Origin: Flavobacteriales bacterium
Lineage (GTDB): Bacteria > Bacteroidota > Bacteroidia > Flavobacteriales > Flavobacteriaceae
Direction of reading: 5' to 3'
NCBI GenBank assembly: GCA_027061855.1
Contig: JAMOVT010000014.1
Span: forward strand, 1-64,000
Length of the DNA stretch: 64,000 bases
Shown: in pieces, positions 19,696-56,679 of the stretch
How the letters are laid out: every line of letters begins with the position of its first letter
Position numbering within the stretch: the first letter of the stretch is position 1
The notes under the pieces: generated by a model
What the model was told of the DNA's origin: nothing
Database searches by the model: none
Seen by the model: the letters and a program-made list of their open reading frames with translations, nothing else
Translations under genes and position numbers: made by a program

Positions 19696-22419
19696 ATGAA
19701 AAAGGAACTGAAAACATATAAACGGGATTTTAGTAAATTACTTTCCGATTTGGATTATATTCTTTCGTGTTTTAAAGAAACATTAGAAAATATACACGAA
19801 AAGAATGCTGTTGTATTGTTAGACCTCAATACGAAAAAGGAGATTGAGAATAAGGCTCTCAAAGAAATTGAAGATGAAAAAATCATCCAGGTATATGGAA
19901 TCTATTTTCAATTGATGAACCTTATTGAAGAAAATGCCGCTACGCAGTTCAGAAGAAAAAAAGAAGATAAAGACGGAGTGGAGTCGATTAGAGGCTCGTG
20001 GGGAGAAACCATAAAACTATGGAAGGAGAAAAGAGTGTCAACAGATAAAATGCTTGAAATTTTATCTCAAACCGAAGTGATTCCTGTCTTGACAGCTCAT
20101 CCGACAGAAGCTAAAAGAGTGACGGTAATCGAGTTGCAACGCGAGTTTTATCTGCTTTTGGTACTAAACGAAATTTCTTTTTATTCCAAAACGGAAAAAG
20201 CCGCTATCCGGCGAAAAATTGTTCATATGTTGGAGCGCTGGTGGAGAACGGGTGAAATATATTTGGAAAAACCCAGTGTACGTGAAGAAAGAGACAATAT
20301 GTTGTATTACCTTGAAAACATGTTCCCGCTGGTTGTTCAAAAAAGTGATGAACGATTAAAAAATACTTGGATTGCTTTGGGATTGAATCCCAATGATTTA
20401 TTAACATCTGATAAATTTCCCAAATGGCGATTCGGTAGTTGGGTAGGGGGAGACCGGGACGGACATCCTTTTGTAACGGCAACCATTACCCAAGAAACAT
20501 TGGAAATACACAGAAAAATTGCCCTTAAACTCATGCAAAAGGAATTGAATGAATTGGGGGCGAAAATCAGTCTTTCCGCATTAAAAAATAAAGTTCCGAT
20601 TTCATTACAAGAAAAAATATATCGATTAACCGAGGATATCGGTATAGATGGAGAAAAAGCCATAAAAAGAAATCCATATGAACCTTGGCGACAATTGGTC
20701 GGACTTTTTCAAGTGAAATTGGAAAATACCATTACCAAGAAGTACAGTGATTCACACCGGTTTTACCGCTCCGCTAATGCATTATTGGATGATTTGAAAT
20801 TTTTAAGAGAAACTTTGTTTGAGATCGATGCACATGGAATTTATGAAGATTTGGTTTTTCCGGTAGAAAGAAAGCTTCAATCCTTTGGTTTTCATTTGGC
20901 TAAGCTCGATATCCGTCAAAACAGTGCTTATTATGAAAAAGCGATTAGTCAAATTTTAAAGAAATTAGGCTATGAAGATAATGACTATGCCGGGTGGTCG
21001 GAAGAAAAACGCCTCAAGTTTCTCAACCGGGAATTATCCTCTTTATTACCCTTTACCGATGTCACAGTTTCCTATGGCAAAGAAGCAGATAACGTGCTTG
21101 ATTACTTTCGCGTGATCAGAGATTATGCCAATCAATATGGTACTGCCGGTATAGGTTCTGTCATAGTGAGTATGACACGCAGTTTAAGTGACCTTTTATT
21201 GGTGTATTTCTTTATGAAAGAAACATTATTGCTCAACACCGATATTCAAGTGGTTCCCTTGTTTGAAACCATCGAAGATTTACAGACCGGACATAAGACT
21301 CTTGATGAATTCCTGAAACATCCCGTTACCCGAAACCGTCAAAAATTTACGGGTAATACACAAGAAGTGATGTTGGGTTATAGTGACAGTAATAAAGACG
21401 GTGGTGTGATTGCCAGTAAATGGAATTTATATTTGGCCGAACGAAAAATGGAAAAAACGGGAGAGGAAAACGGAAGAAAAATATTGTTTTTTCACGGCAG
21501 GGGAGGAACCATTAGTCGTGGAGGTGGAAAATATCATCGTTTTGTAGAAAGTATGCCTACCGGATCGGTGGATGGTGGCATAAAATTGACCGTTCAAGGA
21601 GAATCCATTGCCAAACAATTTGGTAATCCGATGACGGCTACCTATAATTTGGAAATGCTGGGAAGTGGAGTAGCCAGACAAACAATGGATAAATATTTAG
21701 GAAAAGAAAGAAAAAAACGACCTGTAAATATTGTAGAAAGATTGGCTTCCAAATCAAAAGAGATTTATCAAAATCTTATAAAACATCCTCATTTTATCGA
21801 ATTTTATACACAGGCGACTCCGATTGATGTGATCGAGCAAAGTAAAATAGGTTCTCGTCCTTCGCGAAGAACAGGTACACAATCCCTGGATGATTTGCGT
21901 TCCATTCCGTGGGTATTCAGTTGGAATATCAGCCGTTTTGCATTAACCGGTTGGTATGGTACCGGGCAAGCTCTTTTAGAATTAAAAGAAAAAAATCCGT
22001 TGGAATTTGAGGAACTTAAAAAACATATCAATGAATGGCCGTTTCTTAAATTTCTTTTTATCCAAATCGAAACAAATCTTATCATTGCCGATGAAGAAAT
22101 CATGAAGAAATATGCCGGATTAGTTCAAAATGAAAGATTAAGAAAAGAAATGCTCGACTTAATTTTGAATGATTATCATTTGGCCAAAGATTTAATCGAA
22201 GAACTATTCGGTTCTCCGGCTGAACAACGTAGAAAAGGGCAATACATCAATATGAAACTGAGAGAGAATGAATTATATATTTTGCATGAATTACATATAA
22301 AATATTTAAAAAAATGGCGTGAAATAAAAGGCAGTGATACGCCGGAGGAACAACTTATTTTAAAAAAATTATTAAAAATTGTACATGCTTTGTCCGGGGG
22401 ATTAAAGAGTACGGGATAA
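19696..22419 (+). CDS. ppc: Phosphoenolpyruvate carboxylase
   Basis: Adds bicarbonate to PEP to make oxaloacetate, refilling the TCA cycle. At 907 residues it is full length. Catalytic H135 is in LTAHPTEAKR. GGDRDGHPF lies near 252, GYSDSNKDGG near 561 and the FHGRGGTISRGGG loop near 599. The C-terminus ends SGGLKSTG where the family usually has a QNTG-type allosteric-site tail. The ATG follows the oligopeptidase stop directly, so it is in the same operon. Confidence 0.97.
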   Translation: MKKELKTYKRDFSKLLSDLDYILSCFKETLENIHEKNAVVLLDLNTKKEIENKALKEIEDEKIIQVYGIYFQLMNLIEENAATQFRRKKEDKDGVESIRGSWGETIKLWKEKRVSTDKMLEILSQTEVIPVLTAHPTEAKRVTVIELQREFYLLLVLNEISFYSKTEKAAIRRKIVHMLERWWRTGEIYLEKPSVREERDNMLYYLENMFPLVVQKSDERLKNTWIALGLNPNDLLTSDKFPKWRFGSWVGGDRDGHPFVTATITQETLEIHRKIALKLMQKELNELGAKISLSALKNKVPISLQEKIYRLTEDIGIDGEKAIKRNPYEPWRQLVGLFQVKLENTITKKYSDSHRFYRSANALLDDLKFLRETLFEIDAHGIYEDLVFPVERKLQSFGFHLAKLDIRQNSAYYEKAISQILKKLGYEDNDYAGWSEEKRLKFLNRELSSLLPFTDVTVSYGKEADNVLDYFRVIRDYANQYGTAGIGSVIVSMTRSLSDLLLVYFFMKETLLLNTDIQVVPLFETIEDLQTGHKTLDEFLKHPVTRNRQKFTGNTQEVMLGYSDSNKDGGVIASKWNLYLAERKMEKTGEENGRKILFFHGRGGTISRGGGKYHRFVESMPTGSVDGGIKLTVQGESIAKQFGNPMTATYNLEMLGSGVARQTMDKYLGKERKKRPVNIVERLASKSKEIYQNLIKHPHFIEFYTQATPIDVIEQSKIGSRPSRRTGTQSLDDLRSIPWVFSWNISRFALTGWYGTGQALLELKEKNPLEFEELKKHINEWPFLKFLFIQIETNLIIADEEIMKKYAGLVQNERLRKEMLDLILNDYHLAKDLIEELFGSPAEQRRKGQYINMKLRENELYILHELHIKYLKKWREIKGSDTPEEQLILKKLLKIVHALSGGLKSTG

Positions 22420-41287: not shown

Positions 41288-41832
41288 ATATACTGGAAAC
41301 AATTCAGGCCGGAGGAACTGTCCTCTACCCGACCGATACTGTATGGGGTATTGGTGGAGATGCGACCAATCCCGAGGTAATTAAAAAAATAGATACAATA
41401 AAAAAACGGGAATCCGGAAAAAGCTATTTGATTCTTGTAAAAGATTATAAAATGCTTCAAGATTATGTAGAAAATATTCCTATCGAGGTTTGGGAATTGT
41501 TAGAGAAAGCCATTCGCCCTACAACAATCATCTTTCCCAATCCCAAAAATCTTCCCAAAGAAATTTTAGCGGATGATGGTAGCATAGCCATTCGCGTGGT
41601 TAAAAAAGGATTTGCTCATGATTTAATTAAGAATGCCGGAAAGCCTATTATTTCCACGTCTGCAAATTTCTCAGGGCAACCTACTCCCCTCAAGTTTGAT
41701 GATATTCCTCAAAGCATTTTGGAAAATGTTGACTATGTTGTAAATTTGCACCGGAATTCATCATCCACCGGAAAACCTTCTAGAATTATTAAATGGAGTG
41801 AGGACAACGGGGTGGAAATAATCAGAAATTAA
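41284..41832 (+). CDS. L-threonylcarbamoyladenylate synthase (YrdC/Sua5 family)
   Basis: Makes threonylcarbamoyl-AMP for the universal t6A37 modification of ANN-decoding tRNAs. The 182-residue single-domain protein has YPTDTVWGIGGDATN, KRESGKSYLILVKD (the KRxxxK site), IAIRVVKK and STSANFSGQPTP. It is the short YrdC type without the Sua5 extension. It overlaps the glycosyltransferase at its start and cca at its end, so tRNA genes are cotranscribed with glycan genes here. Confidence 0.92.
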   Translation: MNILETIQAGGTVLYPTDTVWGIGGDATNPEVIKKIDTIKKRESGKSYLILVKDYKMLQDYVENIPIEVWELLEKAIRPTTIIFPNPKNLPKEILADDGSIAIRVVKKGFAHDLIKNAGKPIISTSANFSGQPTPLKFDDIPQSILENVDYVVNLHRNSSSTGKPSRIIKWSEDNGVEIIRN

Positions 41833-43259
41833 TGACCAAAGAATTATATTATCCAGAAGCAATAGACCTGCCTGTTTTTAAAATCATAGCCCAAGCCGCC
41901 CAAGAGCAAAATAAAAAAGCATATGTAATCGGTGGGTATGTAAGAGATTTTTTACTGAAAAATCAAAAGGCAAAAGATATTGATGTGGTTGTATTGGGAA
42001 GCGGAATCGAACTGGCAAAAAAAGTGAAAGACTTATTACCTCCCAAAACCAAATCGGCTTATTATAAAAATTTTGGCACGGCAATGTTACAATCCGGAGA
42101 TCTTGAGTTGGAATTTGTCGGTGCCAGAAAAGAATCTTATCGTAAAGACAGTCGCAAGCCTATTGTTGAGGAAGGAAGTATGGAAGATGATCAAAAACGC
42201 AGGGATTTTACCGTAAATGCTTTGGCAATCAGTTTGAATAAAGAAGATTGGGGGAAACTTATTGACCCTTTTAACGGATTGGAAGATTTAAAAAATAAAA
42301 TCCTTCGCACACCTCTCGACCCCGACATTACTTTTTCGGATGATCCTTTGCGAATGATTAGAGCCATCCGTTTTGCTTCGCAACTGCGCTTTGTTATTCA
42401 TCCCGAAACTTTTGAAGCCATTAAAAAAAACAAAAAAAGAATACGCATTTTATCACGAGAAAGAATTGCAGACGAACTCAACAAAATTATGTCGCATCCA
42501 CAACCTTCTATCGGATTGAAGTTGCTTTATGAAACCGGTTTAATGGACGAAATTCTTCCTGAAATCAGCAGATTACAAGGAGTGGATGAAAATGAAGGGA
42601 AAACCCATAAAGATAATTTTTATCATACCTTGGAAGTGGTGGATAATATTGCTGTAAATTCAAATAATTTATGGTTGCGATGGGCAGCATTATTGCATGA
42701 TATAGGTAAACCCGACACAAAACGCTTCCATAAGAAAAACGGTTGGTCTTTCCATGGGCATGAATTTTTGGGAGCTAAAATGGTACCGCGTATTTTTAAA
42801 CGCTTAAAACTTCCTTTGAATCAACAAATGGAATACGTCAAAAAATTGGTACGTTTGAGTTCTCGCCCTCTTTCTTTGATCGAAGAGGAAGTGACCGATT
42901 CTGCTGTCAGACGCTTGCTTTTTGATGCAGGAGATGATATTGAAGATTTGATGATGCTTTGCGAAGCCGATATCACCACTAAAAACAAACAGAAACAACG
43001 GCAATACAAGGATAACCTGAAAAAAGTACGGCAAAAACTGATTGAAGTGGAAGAAAGGGATAAAATTCGTAACTTTCAACCACCGGTATCCGGTAAAGAG
43101 ATTATGCAAACTTTTAATTTAAAACCTTCGAAACCCGTGGGATTAATTAAAGAAGCGATTAAAGAAGCCATTTTAGAAGGCAAAATAAAAAATAACAAAG
43201 AGGAAGCTATGGAATTCATGAAGACCATCGGACCCGAAATAATAAAAACAAATTCATAA
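41832..43259 (+). CDS. cca: CCA tRNA nucleotidyltransferase with HD domain
   Basis: Adds or repairs the 3' CCA end of tRNA. The 475-residue class II nucleotidyltransferase has GGYVRDFLL, the catalytic DIDVVV carboxylates, RRDFTVNALA, DPLRMIRAIRFA and a mid-protein HD phosphohydrolase domain with LLHDIGKP and HGHEFLGAKM. The HD half is normal in this subtype. The start overlaps the previous stop by one base. Confidence 0.94.
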   Translation: MTKELYYPEAIDLPVFKIIAQAAQEQNKKAYVIGGYVRDFLLKNQKAKDIDVVVLGSGIELAKKVKDLLPPKTKSAYYKNFGTAMLQSGDLELEFVGARKESYRKDSRKPIVEEGSMEDDQKRRDFTVNALAISLNKEDWGKLIDPFNGLEDLKNKILRTPLDPDITFSDDPLRMIRAIRFASQLRFVIHPETFEAIKKNKKRIRILSRERIADELNKIMSHPQPSIGLKLLYETGLMDEILPEISRLQGVDENEGKTHKDNFYHTLEVVDNIAVNSNNLWLRWAALLHDIGKPDTKRFHKKNGWSFHGHEFLGAKMVPRIFKRLKLPLNQQMEYVKKLVRLSSRPLSLIEEEVTDSAVRRLLFDAGDDIEDLMMLCEADITTKNKQKQRQYKDNLKKVRQKLIEVEERDKIRNFQPPVSGKEIMQTFNLKPSKPVGLIKEAIKEAILEGKIKNNKEEAMEFMKTIGPEIIKTNS

Positions 43260-43271
43260 AAACTCCGGATT

Positions 43272-43790
43272 ATGATCAATCAATTGCGTATTATACTTGA
43301 AACTGACAAAGACGATGTTTATCGAGACATAGAAATAGAAGACGATGCAACTTTAGAAGATTTGCATAATGTTATTGTACAAAGCTTTGATTTTGAAGGC
43401 TATGAACCTGCGGCCTTTTATCTTACCGATGATGAATTAAATCAAGGTTTGGAAATTCCTTTGTTTAATTTTGACGAATCCCAACCGGTAAATAATCTCA
43501 TGGGAAATACATTAATTAAAGATGTTTTAAGCCCGGAGAGTCCCAATTTACTTTATGTATATGATTTTTTAAATATGTGGCGCTTTTTAGTCAACCTGAT
43601 GGATCAGAAAGAAGAAAAAGAACCGGGAATAGAATATCCGATTGTGGTAAAAGCTCACGGTTTACGTCCCGAAGAGGCACCCGAAGTACAATTTGAAGAC
43701 GATTCGGCAGAATCGGAAGATCCCTTTAAAAATGACTTGGATAATCCTTTTGGCGAATTTTATGATTATGACGATGAAGAATGGAATTAA
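43272..43790 (+). CDS. pRiA4b ORF-3-like / 'IS1096 passenger TnpR' domain protein
   Basis: A 172-residue protein whose first 130 residues match the pattern of the pRiA4b ORF-3-like family (often mislabelled as an IS1096 TnpR): LRIILETDKDDVYRDIEIED, LEDLHNVIVQSFDFEGYEPA, FYLTDDE. The tail is very acidic (FEDDSAESEDPFKNDLDNPF, then YDYDDEEWN). Function unknown. No transposase or inverted repeats are near, so the mobile-element name should not be taken literally. Twelve bases after cca. Confidence 0.82.
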   Translation: MINQLRIILETDKDDVYRDIEIEDDATLEDLHNVIVQSFDFEGYEPAAFYLTDDELNQGLEIPLFNFDESQPVNNLMGNTLIKDVLSPESPNLLYVYDFLNMWRFLVNLMDQKEEKEPGIEYPIVVKAHGLRPEEAPEVQFEDDSAESEDPFKNDLDNPFGEFYDYDDEEWN

Positions 43791-43949: not shown

Positions 43950-44783
43950 ATGAAGACAACAACAAAAATCATGATGCTATTTTTAGCAATGACTTTAACT
44001 TTAGCAGCCTGTTCAAAAGATGATGATACGGGAACCGTACAGGTAAAAGTAACAGATGCTCCTTTTCCTTTCAAATTTGTAAGTGAAGCAAATGTAAATA
44101 TCACAAAAGTTGAATTAAAAAATGAAGACAAGGAGTATGTAACAGTATTTGAAGGGAATGCTGCTATGAATATGGTGCAATACCGAAATGGGGTTACTGC
44201 TAATTTGGCTGTAAAAAGTATACCTCCCGGAAAGTATTCAGGTATTAGAGTAACTATTGAAGGAGCCGAAGTGAAACTGACAAATGGTGAAACATTTACA
44301 GTGCAGGCTGGTTTAAACGGGACTGTGAATACTATTATCACCCCCGAATTAGTGGTTAAGGAAGGAGAAAGTCAAGAAATCCTTATGGATATAGATATGT
44401 CAGACAGTTTTTCTTTTTCCGGAAATTTCTTTGGCGGATGGATCACTGCAGTCACACAAATTACAGGTATATCCAGTTTTAATCCTGATGTGAGAGTGGC
44501 AAATCTGGAAATGACCGGTTCTGTATCGGGAACAGTAAAAGATACTGACGGAACGGTTATAGAAGGAGCTGAAGTATATGTAAAATATGATTATGACGGC
44601 GATGGAACTCTTGAGGAAATTTCTACTGTAACTGAAGCTGACGGTAGTTTTAAAATCATAGGTCTTCCTGCAGGTCAATATACTCTTTATGTCGATGCAA
44701 AAGATGCCAATGAAGTAACAACAACGGTTACTGTAAATGTAGATGCTGAAGTAACGGTAACAGTAGAAGTAGTTCAAGAATAA
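43950..44783 (+). CDS. DUF4382 lipoprotein with C-terminal carboxypeptidase-regulatory-like domain
   Basis: A 277-residue lipoprotein with lipobox LAAC (C21). Residues about 27-175 are a DUF4382 domain (VQVKVTDAPFPFKFVSEANV, NLAVKSIPPGKYSGIRVTIEG). After a short linker, residues about 190-277 form a beta-sandwich like CarboxypepD_reg domains (GSVSGTVKDTDGTVIEGAEV, GLPAGQYTLYVDA). Both domains are envelope-facing in Bacteroidota; function is unknown. Single gene with its own terminator. Confidence 0.85.
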   Translation: MKTTTKIMMLFLAMTLTLAACSKDDDTGTVQVKVTDAPFPFKFVSEANVNITKVELKNEDKEYVTVFEGNAAMNMVQYRNGVTANLAVKSIPPGKYSGIRVTIEGAEVKLTNGETFTVQAGLNGTVNTIITPELVVKEGESQEILMDIDMSDSFSFSGNFFGGWITAVTQITGISSFNPDVRVANLEMTGSVSGTVKDTDGTVIEGAEVYVKYDYDGDGTLEEISTVTEADGSFKIIGLPAGQYTLYVDAKDANEVTTTVTVNVDAEVTVTVEVVQE

Positions 44784-44805: not shown

Positions 44806-44836
44806 AAAAAACGATCCGGTTTGGGTCGTTTTTTTT
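44806..44836 (+). terminator. Intrinsic terminator of the DUF4382 lipoprotein gene
   Basis: Stem AAAAACGATCC (44807-44817) with GGGTCGTTTTT (44823-44833), one G-T pair, then a T run. Confidence 0.8.
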
Positions 44837-44857: not shown

Positions 44858-45588
44858 ATGAAGAAAATTGAAAAATACCTGCTGGAAAAATACCGGTCAA
44901 AAGTTGTTAAGGCTATTGAAGATTTTCAATTGATTGAAAATAATGACCGAGTATTGGTGGCTATTTCTGGCGGCAAGGATTCTATGGCATTGCTAGATAT
45001 TTTAAACAATAGAAAAAAAGCCCTAAAAATAGACTATCAGATCAAAGCCATACATATAAAACTTACAGACATCCCCTATTACACTGATCATCGAGCCTTA
45101 TTGGAATTTTGTAAGAAAAGAGGAATACAGTTTGAAATTATCTCTAGTAATAAAAAAATTTCAAGGGAAGGAAACAGCCTTGTTTCTATTGTGCTTGGAA
45201 CCGTCGTAAATTAATTTTTAAATATGCACAGGAACATAATTATAATAAAATTGCATTTGGCCATCATAAAGACGATGCAGTGGAAACTTTATTAATGAAT
45301 ATGATTTATCATGCCGAAATAAGTAGTTTTCCAGCCAAAATCCAAATGTTTGAGAATGCTTTTGAAATAATTAGACCACTTATCTATTTGACAGACAAAG
45401 AATTGAAAAAATATGTTCAATTGATAGATTACACTCCCCTTCCCTATGATTGTCCTTTTGCCAAAGAAAACAAAAGAGAACATTTTAAACAATTATTGTC
45501 AAACATTACTAAATTAAATAAAAACGGAGTCGCAAATATTTTTAAGTCTATGGGGCATATATATAAAGAACATTTACCTGTTAAATAA
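44858..45588 (+). pseudogene. TtcA-like tRNA thiolation protein, split by a frameshift
   Basis: A PP-loop ATPase of the TtcA/TilS family spread over two frames. Frame one (44858-45214) gives the start, including the ATP motif SGGKDS, then runs into nonsense after NKKIS. The other frame continues with PCFYCAWNRRK, the CxxC expected for the iron-sulfur or sulfur-transfer site, then FGHHKDDAVET and RPLIYLTDKE to 45588. Adding one A to the run of seven A at 45152-45158 joins both into a protein of about 243 residues. It could be a real broken gene, a phase-variable or slippage site, or an assembly error. Confidence 0.8.
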
Positions 45589-45918: not shown

Positions 45919-47133
45919 TTAAATAATTTCCGCTACTGTAAAAGTACTCCCTCCCACAAAGATAAGGTCATTTTTTTCGGCCTTTGTTAAAGCTTCTTTA
46001 TAAGCCTCTGCAATGCTTTGAAAATGTTTTCCGTTTAAGTGATGGCTTAGGGCTTTATTCATAAGAATTTTGCTGTCTAATCCTCTTGGGATATTTGCTT
46101 TTGAAAAATAGTAGAATGCATTCCGGGGAAACAAACTCAATATTTTGTCTATTTCTTTGTCATTTACAAGAGATAATACAATATGAAGTTTTTCATAAGA
46201 AATCGAGTTTATTTGTTCCATCACTTCCTTTAATCCCGCTTCATTATGAGCGGTATCTGCTATAACAAGCGGATTTGTTTTCAAAATATCCCAGCGTCCT
46301 CTTAAATCCGTATTATTTTTTACATTTTTCAATCCTTCAAAAACAGCTTTATCGGGAATGGAATATCCCTTTTGACGTAAAACTTCCACGGCTTTCAAAA
46401 CCGTTTGTATGTTTTTTTTCTGATACTTCCCTTTTAAATCGGATTCCGGAAGTTCAACAAATTTTTCAGCGAGATACAATGGAGAATTCTTTTTTTCAGC
46501 TTCCTCTCTAAATACTTTTAAGGTTTCCGGTTTCCATTCACCTATAACAACAGGAGTATGCTCTTTTATTATTCCGGCTTTTTCGCGGGCTATTTCTTCA
46601 AGGCTATTTCCCAGCATTTGGGTATGGTCCAAACTGATATTGGTAATAACAGATAAATCCGGAGTAATAATATTTGTACTGTCTAAGCGACCGCCAAGCC
46701 CTGTTTCAATTATCGCGACATCGACTTGTTTTTTGGCAAATTGCTCAAATGCCATACCTACACTCAACTCAAAGAATGAGAGCCTGTTGTCTTCAATAAA
46801 TTTTTTATTTCGCTTAATAAAATTGATCACACAATTTTTCCGCATCATTTTTCCGTCAATCCGTATTCTCTCTCTAAAATCTTTTAAATGAGGAGAGGTA
46901 TATAGACCTGTGTGATAACCCGCAGTTTGCAATATAGAGGCTAGCATATGAGAAACGGAACCTTTGCCGTTTGTGCCGGCTATATGTATGCTTTTAAAGT
47001 GTTGATGCGGATTACCGAGATGCCGGGAAAGTTTTATTATATTATTTAAATCTTTTTTAAATGCCGTTTTTCCTTGTCGCTGATACATCGGAAGCCGGCT
47101 AAACATCCATTGCAAGGTTTCTTCGTAATTCAC
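45919..47133 (-). CDS. folC: Folylpolyglutamate synthase / dihydrofolate synthase
   Basis: Joins glutamate to dihydropteroate and folates. The 404-residue Mur-ligase-fold protein has SIHIAGTNGKGSVSHML (P-loop), SPHLKDFRERIRI, ETGLGGRLDSTN and DTAHNEAG. The start is GTG at 47133 just two bases after the tonB stop; the resulting NYEETLQWMFSRLPMYQ matches the family's usual N-terminus, and the next ATG would remove it. It is cotranscribed with tonB, exbD and exbB by position. Confidence 0.94.
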   Translation of the reverse strand: MNYEETLQWMFSRLPMYQRQGKTAFKKDLNNIIKLSRHLGNPHQHFKSIHIAGTNGKGSVSHMLASILQTAGYHTGLYTSPHLKDFRERIRIDGKMMRKNCVINFIKRNKKFIEDNRLSFFELSVGMAFEQFAKKQVDVAIIETGLGGRLDSTNIITPDLSVITNISLDHTQMLGNSLEEIAREKAGIIKEHTPVVIGEWKPETLKVFREEAEKKNSPLYLAEKFVELPESDLKGKYQKKNIQTVLKAVEVLRQKGYSIPDKAVFEGLKNVKNNTDLRGRWDILKTNPLVIADTAHNEAGLKEVMEQINSISYEKLHIVLSLVNDKEIDKILSLFPRNAFYYFSKANIPRGLDSKILMNKALSHHLNGKHFQSIAEAYKEALTKAEKNDLIFVGGSTFTVAEII

Positions 47134-55520: not shown

Positions 55521-55536
55521 CATTTTGATAAAAGAA

Positions 55537-56679
55537 ATGAAAGAAATCCAATTACACGACAAAATTTTCGAGCCTTATATCGATGCCGAAAAAATAGATG
55601 CAGCCATAGAGCATTTGGCGAAAGACTTGGAAAAATATGCAGAAAACGAAACTCTGGTTTTTGTTTCTGTTTTAAAAGGCTCTTTTATGTTCACTTCCGA
55701 TTTGGCCAAAAAATATAAAAAACCGGTGGTATTTGAATTTTTCAGGCTAAAATCCTATGAAGGAACGAATTCAACCGGAGAAGTGAATGTATTGATGGAC
55801 ATTGATGAAGAATTGGTTAAAGGAAAAAAGATAATCGTATTGGAAGATATCGTGGATACGGGAAACACATTGGAAAAAATTTATGAAGTTTTGGAGTCCA
55901 AGCAGCCCGCATCCATCAAAATAGCCACCTTATTTTTTAAACCGAAAGCATACAATAAAAGTTTACCTATCGATTTTGTAGGAATGGAAATTCCTAATGA
56001 TTTTATTGTAGGATTCGGATTGGATTATGATGAACTGGGAAGAAATTTACCTGAAATATATAAATTAAAAGAAGTGAAAAAGAGACGAACCGTTGACATT
56101 GTATTATTTGGCCCTCCGGGAGCAGGAAAAGGAACACAGGCAAATATTTTAAAAGATAAATTGGGCTTGCAATATATCGCTACCGGCGATTTATTCCGCC
56201 ATCATATCAAAAATAAAACTCCGCTTGGACAAAAGGCACAACAATATATCGATAATGGTGAATTGGTTCCCGATGAAATTACTATCGGAATGATCAAGGA
56301 ATTATTAAAAGATCCCGATAGTAAAGGCTTTATTTTTGACGGATTTCCACGTACGGTAGAACAAGCTCAGGCACTGGATGAAATTATGGCTGAAAAAGGT
56401 TTGATTATAGATGCATTGCTTTCGCTAAACGTACCTGAGGAAAGATTGGTGAAACGTTTGCTAAATCGAGGAAAAACCAGTGGTAGAAGTGATGATAATG
56501 AAGAAACCATAAAGAAAAGATTACAACAATATCATGAAAAAACCACTCCGGTAAAAGATTATTATGCCAATCAAGGCAAACTCTATGAAATCAACGGTGT
56601 AGGTGATATAGACGAGATACATAACCGGTTAATGGATATCATTAACAATTTGAAATTAAACGAAAATAAGCCAAAATAA
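55537..56679 (+). CDS. Fused hypoxanthine phosphoribosyltransferase–adenylate kinase
   Basis: A 380-residue fusion joining purine salvage to adenylate balance. Residues about 1-180 are an [21 protein letters not shown], the PRPP loop [12 protein letters not shown], and a C-terminal VGFGLDYDE. After a short basic linker, residues about 187-380 are adenylate kinase: P-loop [36 protein letters not shown] and [11 protein letters not shown]. The kinase has the short LID without zinc cysteines. I recall this fusion from other flavobacteria, so it is probably lineage-wide. ATG 55537 is used because the TTG at 55525 lies too near the promoter. Confidence 0.92.

Follow-up and report, generated by a model that had tools for sequence, protein, structure and literature searches.

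Here, we describe a TtcA-like gene that is split by a change of reading frame in the assembly of a Flavobacteriales bacterium, within the 64,000-nucleotide stretch of DNA that we analysed as a whole (the window). On balance, we favour the reading that a dispensable, vertically inherited, single-copy gene was recently inactivated by a change of one base. One base missing in the zone 45152–45178 would put the gene out of frame, and translation would run on for no more than about 20 codons, to the stop at 45212. The CFYC cluster-binding motif would then not be made, and no active enzyme would be produced. Such a loss would be recent on the evolutionary scale and would affect a dispensable modification gene. 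We infer that the cell itself truly lacks the base and that this leaves the gene inactive: a real recent loss is the most likely explanation, ahead of an error in the assembly, and slippage is unlikely.

The gene consists of two parts on the forward strand. The 5′ part (44858–45214) lies in frame 0, which is open for 118 amino acids from an ATG at 44858 to a TAA at 45212–45214 and carries the PP-loop SGGKDS; its sequence can be trusted to about 45150, and what follows is an out-of-frame tail. The 3′ part (45154–45588) lies one base off on the same strand, in a −1-related frame open for 144 amino acids from 45154 to a TAA at 45586–45588, and holds CFYC, GHH.DD and a third cysteine in YDCPFA. 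In profile searches the halves match positions 2–68 and 86–157 of the 182 in PF01171, and positions 18–108 and 121–256 of the 295 in the NCBIfam TtcA model, in order and without overlap. Because these are consecutive, non-overlapping parts of both models, the halves belong to one gene and are not a chance pairing. Joined with an X at the junction, they give 243 residues that are collinear with intact relatives of 241–248 residues, and the alignment to the two congeners (241 and 248 amino acids) has no internal gaps. Beyond the one frame break, no second stop or indel was seen in the two halves, and the catalytic and cysteine motifs are retained, with the frame change falling between the PP-loop and the central C-x-x-C. 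A preliminary description of this DNA had placed the SGGKDS and CFYC halves in different frames and had noted that both keep conserved residues; the coordinates and the consecutive profile matches bear out the first point, and the PP-loop, CFYC, GHH.DD and YDCPFA the second.

The site of the frame change is less sharply defined. Both frames are open across about 45152–45214, so one extra base anywhere in that interval would join the halves, and a run of seven A at 45152–45158 (forward strand; A7), which had been named earlier as the place of the shift, is not required as the site. The switch point was moved codon by codon through all possible positions, and each resulting joined sequence was scored against profiles of the intact relatives, which delimits a possible zone at 45152–45178 (forward strand) with its best part at 45160–45174. 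Switch points in that best part reach up to 393.6 bits (close set), mostly 2–5 bits above those in the A7 run (387.5–390.1), because frame 0 after the run keeps the I..EG of the relatives’ II.EGKQPC. On the 3′ side the scores drop past 45178, the start of the conserved QPCFYC, and on the 5′ side the zone is limited by a stop just before 45154. The run thus lies inside the zone, at its 5′ edge, and not in its best-scoring part; as the difference in score is small, the run is a possible site and not a favoured one. The earlier placement in or near A7 therefore holds for ‘near’, but not for the run as the site itself, since slightly higher scores are obtained 3′ of it. The comparison of run length among relatives that had been proposed as a check gives a similar picture: at the matching place the longest A run is 3–6 in 13 of 14 aligned relatives, so that A7 is not common to them, and the one exception (L050) has A9 and is still in frame. 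Runs of this length are frequent in the AT-rich genome: within the window, the 56 intact genes contain 59 A7 and 29 T7 runs, and 127 A/T runs of at least seven in total.

The relatives comprised two congeners (L005 and L006) and 27 loci of the genome_contigs collection, 29 loci in all. The 27, nearly all labelled Bacteroidota, were found with a search pattern from the alignment of the C-terminal half; two of them repeat the congeners (L036 is one congener’s gene and L037 encodes the same protein as the other’s), which leaves 27 independent loci. The preliminary description had raised the prospect of further inactivating changes in related strains; instead, the gene is in frame across the break site in all 29 loci. 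No same-species copy was found by exact scan of viral_contigs, and no second TtcA-like gene was found in this genome (2.04 Mb, 117 contigs, 95% complete), where the search returned only TilS. About six family-level matches at 23–25% identity were excluded as another gene (L009 is a canonical TtcA by profile score), as were weaker family-level matches that appear from their length to be TilS.

A frame intact in every relative, together with a single lesion that leaves every motif in place and an assembly that is a draft of 117 contigs, would also be expected if the organism’s own gene were whole and the base were missing only in the draft consensus. A survey of 1106 prokaryote genomes, in which BLASTp-validated singleton frameshifts were expected to be mostly sequencing errors (PMC3711429), counts in the same direction. 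Against this, and as evidence for a real loss, the window’s 56 other genes have full-length open frames, none of them noticed to be broken, despite the 127 A/T runs of at least seven. Likewise, when 310 kb of the genome was scanned crudely for coding potential, only this place and one chance hit, on the strand opposite intact genes, were flagged, although the sensitivity was low: a stricter version missed even this gene, and the loosened one caught it through a neighbouring open stretch. With the other window genes intact and the scan nearly clean, homopolymer error seems unlikely as a general feature of the assembly. A single local error at the break, with the gene whole in the organism, is a serious but lesser possibility.

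A further reading, anticipated in the preliminary description, is that transcriptional slippage at A7, or −1 slippage of the ribosome there, keeps the gene expressed. The run does lie in the possible zone, at its 5′ edge, the motifs are conserved, and there is precedent in Buchnera and Blochmannia, in which single poly(A) frameshifts are reported to be rescued by slippage (PMC3017870). However, switch points 3′ of the run score slightly higher, the frame change occurs in none of the 29 relative loci and the run is not conserved in the 14 that were aligned. Published runs for bacterial transcriptional slippage are A8 or longer, commonly A9 (PMC1088944, PMC3711429), and A7 is shorter than these. 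The in-frame codons read T AAA AAA, which is not the canonical X XXY YYZ tandem slippery heptamer, the downstream RNA folds no better than shuffled sequences (z 0.31), and 59 other A7 runs stand in intact genes of the window. The mark of a programmed frameshift or slippage site, conservation of both the frame change and a slippery motif among relatives, was not found here. Dependence on slippage is thus unsupported: relatives share neither the run nor the frame change, the downstream RNA is not unusually structured and the run is short. We regard continued expression by this route as improbable. That polymerase or ribosome slippage at A7 yields low levels of the enzyme in this apparently free-living Flavobacteriales bacterium is very improbable; rescue of this kind is known mainly from insect endosymbionts. 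We give almost no credence to phase variation, in which changes in run length would switch expression of the gene within a population: a homopolymer does lie near the frame change, but it is only seven long and is absent in relatives and, to our knowledge, housekeeping genes for tRNA modification are not usual phase-variable loci.

The gene whose recent loss we favour lies in a conserved neighbourhood. Upstream of it, cca and PRiA4_ORF3 (41832–43790, forward strand) are conserved neighbours, and downstream folC (45919–47133, reverse strand) is a conserved convergent neighbour in related Flavobacteriales. Among the relatives, L050 has the order tsaC-cca-PRiA4_ORF3-ttcA, and in L044–L049 the ttcA-like gene is convergent with folC-tonB-exbD-exbB. 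The window locus combines both flanks (tsaC-cca-PRiA4_ORF3 and folC-tonB-exbD-exbB) with added genes for a dodecin and a DUF4382/CarboxypepD_reg lipoprotein; the latter (43950–44783, forward strand) lies between PRiA4_ORF3 and the TtcA-like gene and was not found at the matching place in relatives. The TtcA-like gene is a vertically inherited copy at its ancestral place. As it also groups with its congeners (weakly in the wider tree), we rejected a horizontal-transfer or paralogue origin for its long branch.

In the congeners, EptA-type, LysR and YeiH-like genes lie between PRiA4_ORF3 and ttcA, the full set on contig C183 of G002, and LysR and YeiH on the G001 contig. In these stretches (L100:554-4847 and L101) the TtcA-like gene stands directly 3′ of LysR and the YeiH-like gene (PF03601), and L100 also has the EptA-type gene, farther upstream. 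The window locus lacks this cassette and has the DUF4382 lipoprotein gene, and elsewhere in the window’s genome the sole match to PF03601 is weak, in a 521-residue frame. In another part of the window, one 384-amino-acid frame (55525–56679) has hypoxanthine phosphoribosyltransferase-like and adenylate kinase-like parts, by eye an apparent fusion.

The protein branch leading to the window copy is long, at 0.46 against about 0.26 for the congeners (1.8×). For comparison, this ratio comes to 0.44 (gcvP), 0.92 (obg), 1.14 (cca) and 0.51 (folC) in four other genes; all ratios were computed from printed branch lengths, and the obg sequences were chosen by best hit. A 907-amino-acid phosphoenolpyruvate carboxylase-like gene (19696–22419, named by eye) gave no branch control, since searches of the two congeners and of six further related genomes returned no match or a remote one. 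The gcvP match in one related genome (L069, G202:C30:11154-13994) is interrupted by one internal TAA, which shows that broken genes also occur in other drafts of the group. At close-clade columns that are otherwise invariant (eight relatives), the window copy is changed in 10 of 100, against 0–3 of about 92 per relative, a figure inflated by there being no close sister of the window in the set. Changes where all outgroups agree number 11 against 8, which is not significant (Fisher p = 0.22 against controls), and dN/dS against the relatives is saturated. Upstream of the gene, a terminator-like hairpin with a T run (44806–44834, forward strand) lies 24 bases from the ATG, and transcription coming from upstream may therefore express the gene poorly. 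The long branch and this hairpin are a hint of relaxed constraint, which fits less well with a gene broken only in the consensus. About 5.8% of random substitutions in the halves would create a stop, so that after some 50 neutral substitutions at least one would be expected with 95% probability; as no further stop is present, any decay is young. Provided that the break is real, the recency suggested in the preliminary description is supported, as there is no second lesion and the relatives are intact.

The gene belongs to the TtcA family in the wide sense, that of PP-loop tRNA thiolases with SGGKDS and a central C-x-x-C (PMC6082896), both of which are present. It shares these motifs, its overall length and its collinearity with canonical TtcA, yet it has CFYCAWNRRK in place of CSLCSRLRRG and, in the window and the congeners alike, a single cysteine (YDCPFA) at the second site in place of C-N-L-C. 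It therefore falls outside TtcA group I, which has two C-x-x-C motifs (C115–C118 and C203–C206 in P. aeruginosa TtcA). Against the TtcA equivalog model NF007972, with its curated whole-protein cut-off of 272 bits, the halves score 68.7 and 108.3 and five intact relatives 184.9–205, whereas 432.9 is reached by L009, a canonical TtcA encoded in a different genome of this bacterial family. The earlier name ‘TtcA-like’ thus stands, but the name TtcA proper is not established. The group II enzymes TtuA/NcsA, which are tRNA 2-thiouridine synthetases, likewise have the PP-loop and C-x-x-C, but the terminal zinc-finger CXXC(H) motifs that define the group are lacking at both the N and C termini of the 241–248-amino-acid relatives, and the scores (45–84) are far below the curated cut-offs (450–500). 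In an alignment with P. horikoshii TtuA (PH0300, 3vrh), the three cysteines fall on cysteines of that enzyme, which suggests that the subfamily is probably, judging from sequence, a three-cysteine Fe–S tRNA thiolase of the ATP-pyrophosphatase type. The Bacteroidota subfamily of L005, L006 and L036–L062, marked by CFYC/CFxC-[AS]-W-x-RR, is separate from the canonical TtcA (CSLCSRLRRG) of other Flavobacteriaceae. This CFYCAWNRRK type (27 Bacteroidota-type loci, the five tested below the TtcA cut-off) may merit a separate substrate assay.

The annotation is accordingly corrected to a TtcA-like gene that is not canonical TtcA, with a break in the assembly that does not clearly fall in the A run; a real break would add another example of a dispensable tRNA thiolation gene. 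Compared with the canonical enzyme, the gene both scores below the curated cut-off and is frameshifted in this genome. The poly(A) frameshifts of Buchnera and Blochmannia resemble it in their AT-rich genomes, in a single indel near an A run and in a remainder that stays in frame; in contrast to those cases, the genome here is 2 Mb and not that of a strongly reduced endosymbiont, the run is shorter and not clearly the site of the indel, and rescue is reported for those genes. From ordinary recent bacterial pseudogenes nothing clearly distinguishes the gene, whose disruption is known from one draft assembly: they too have one inactivating indel in a gene that is otherwise conserved, and leave no trace in relatives.
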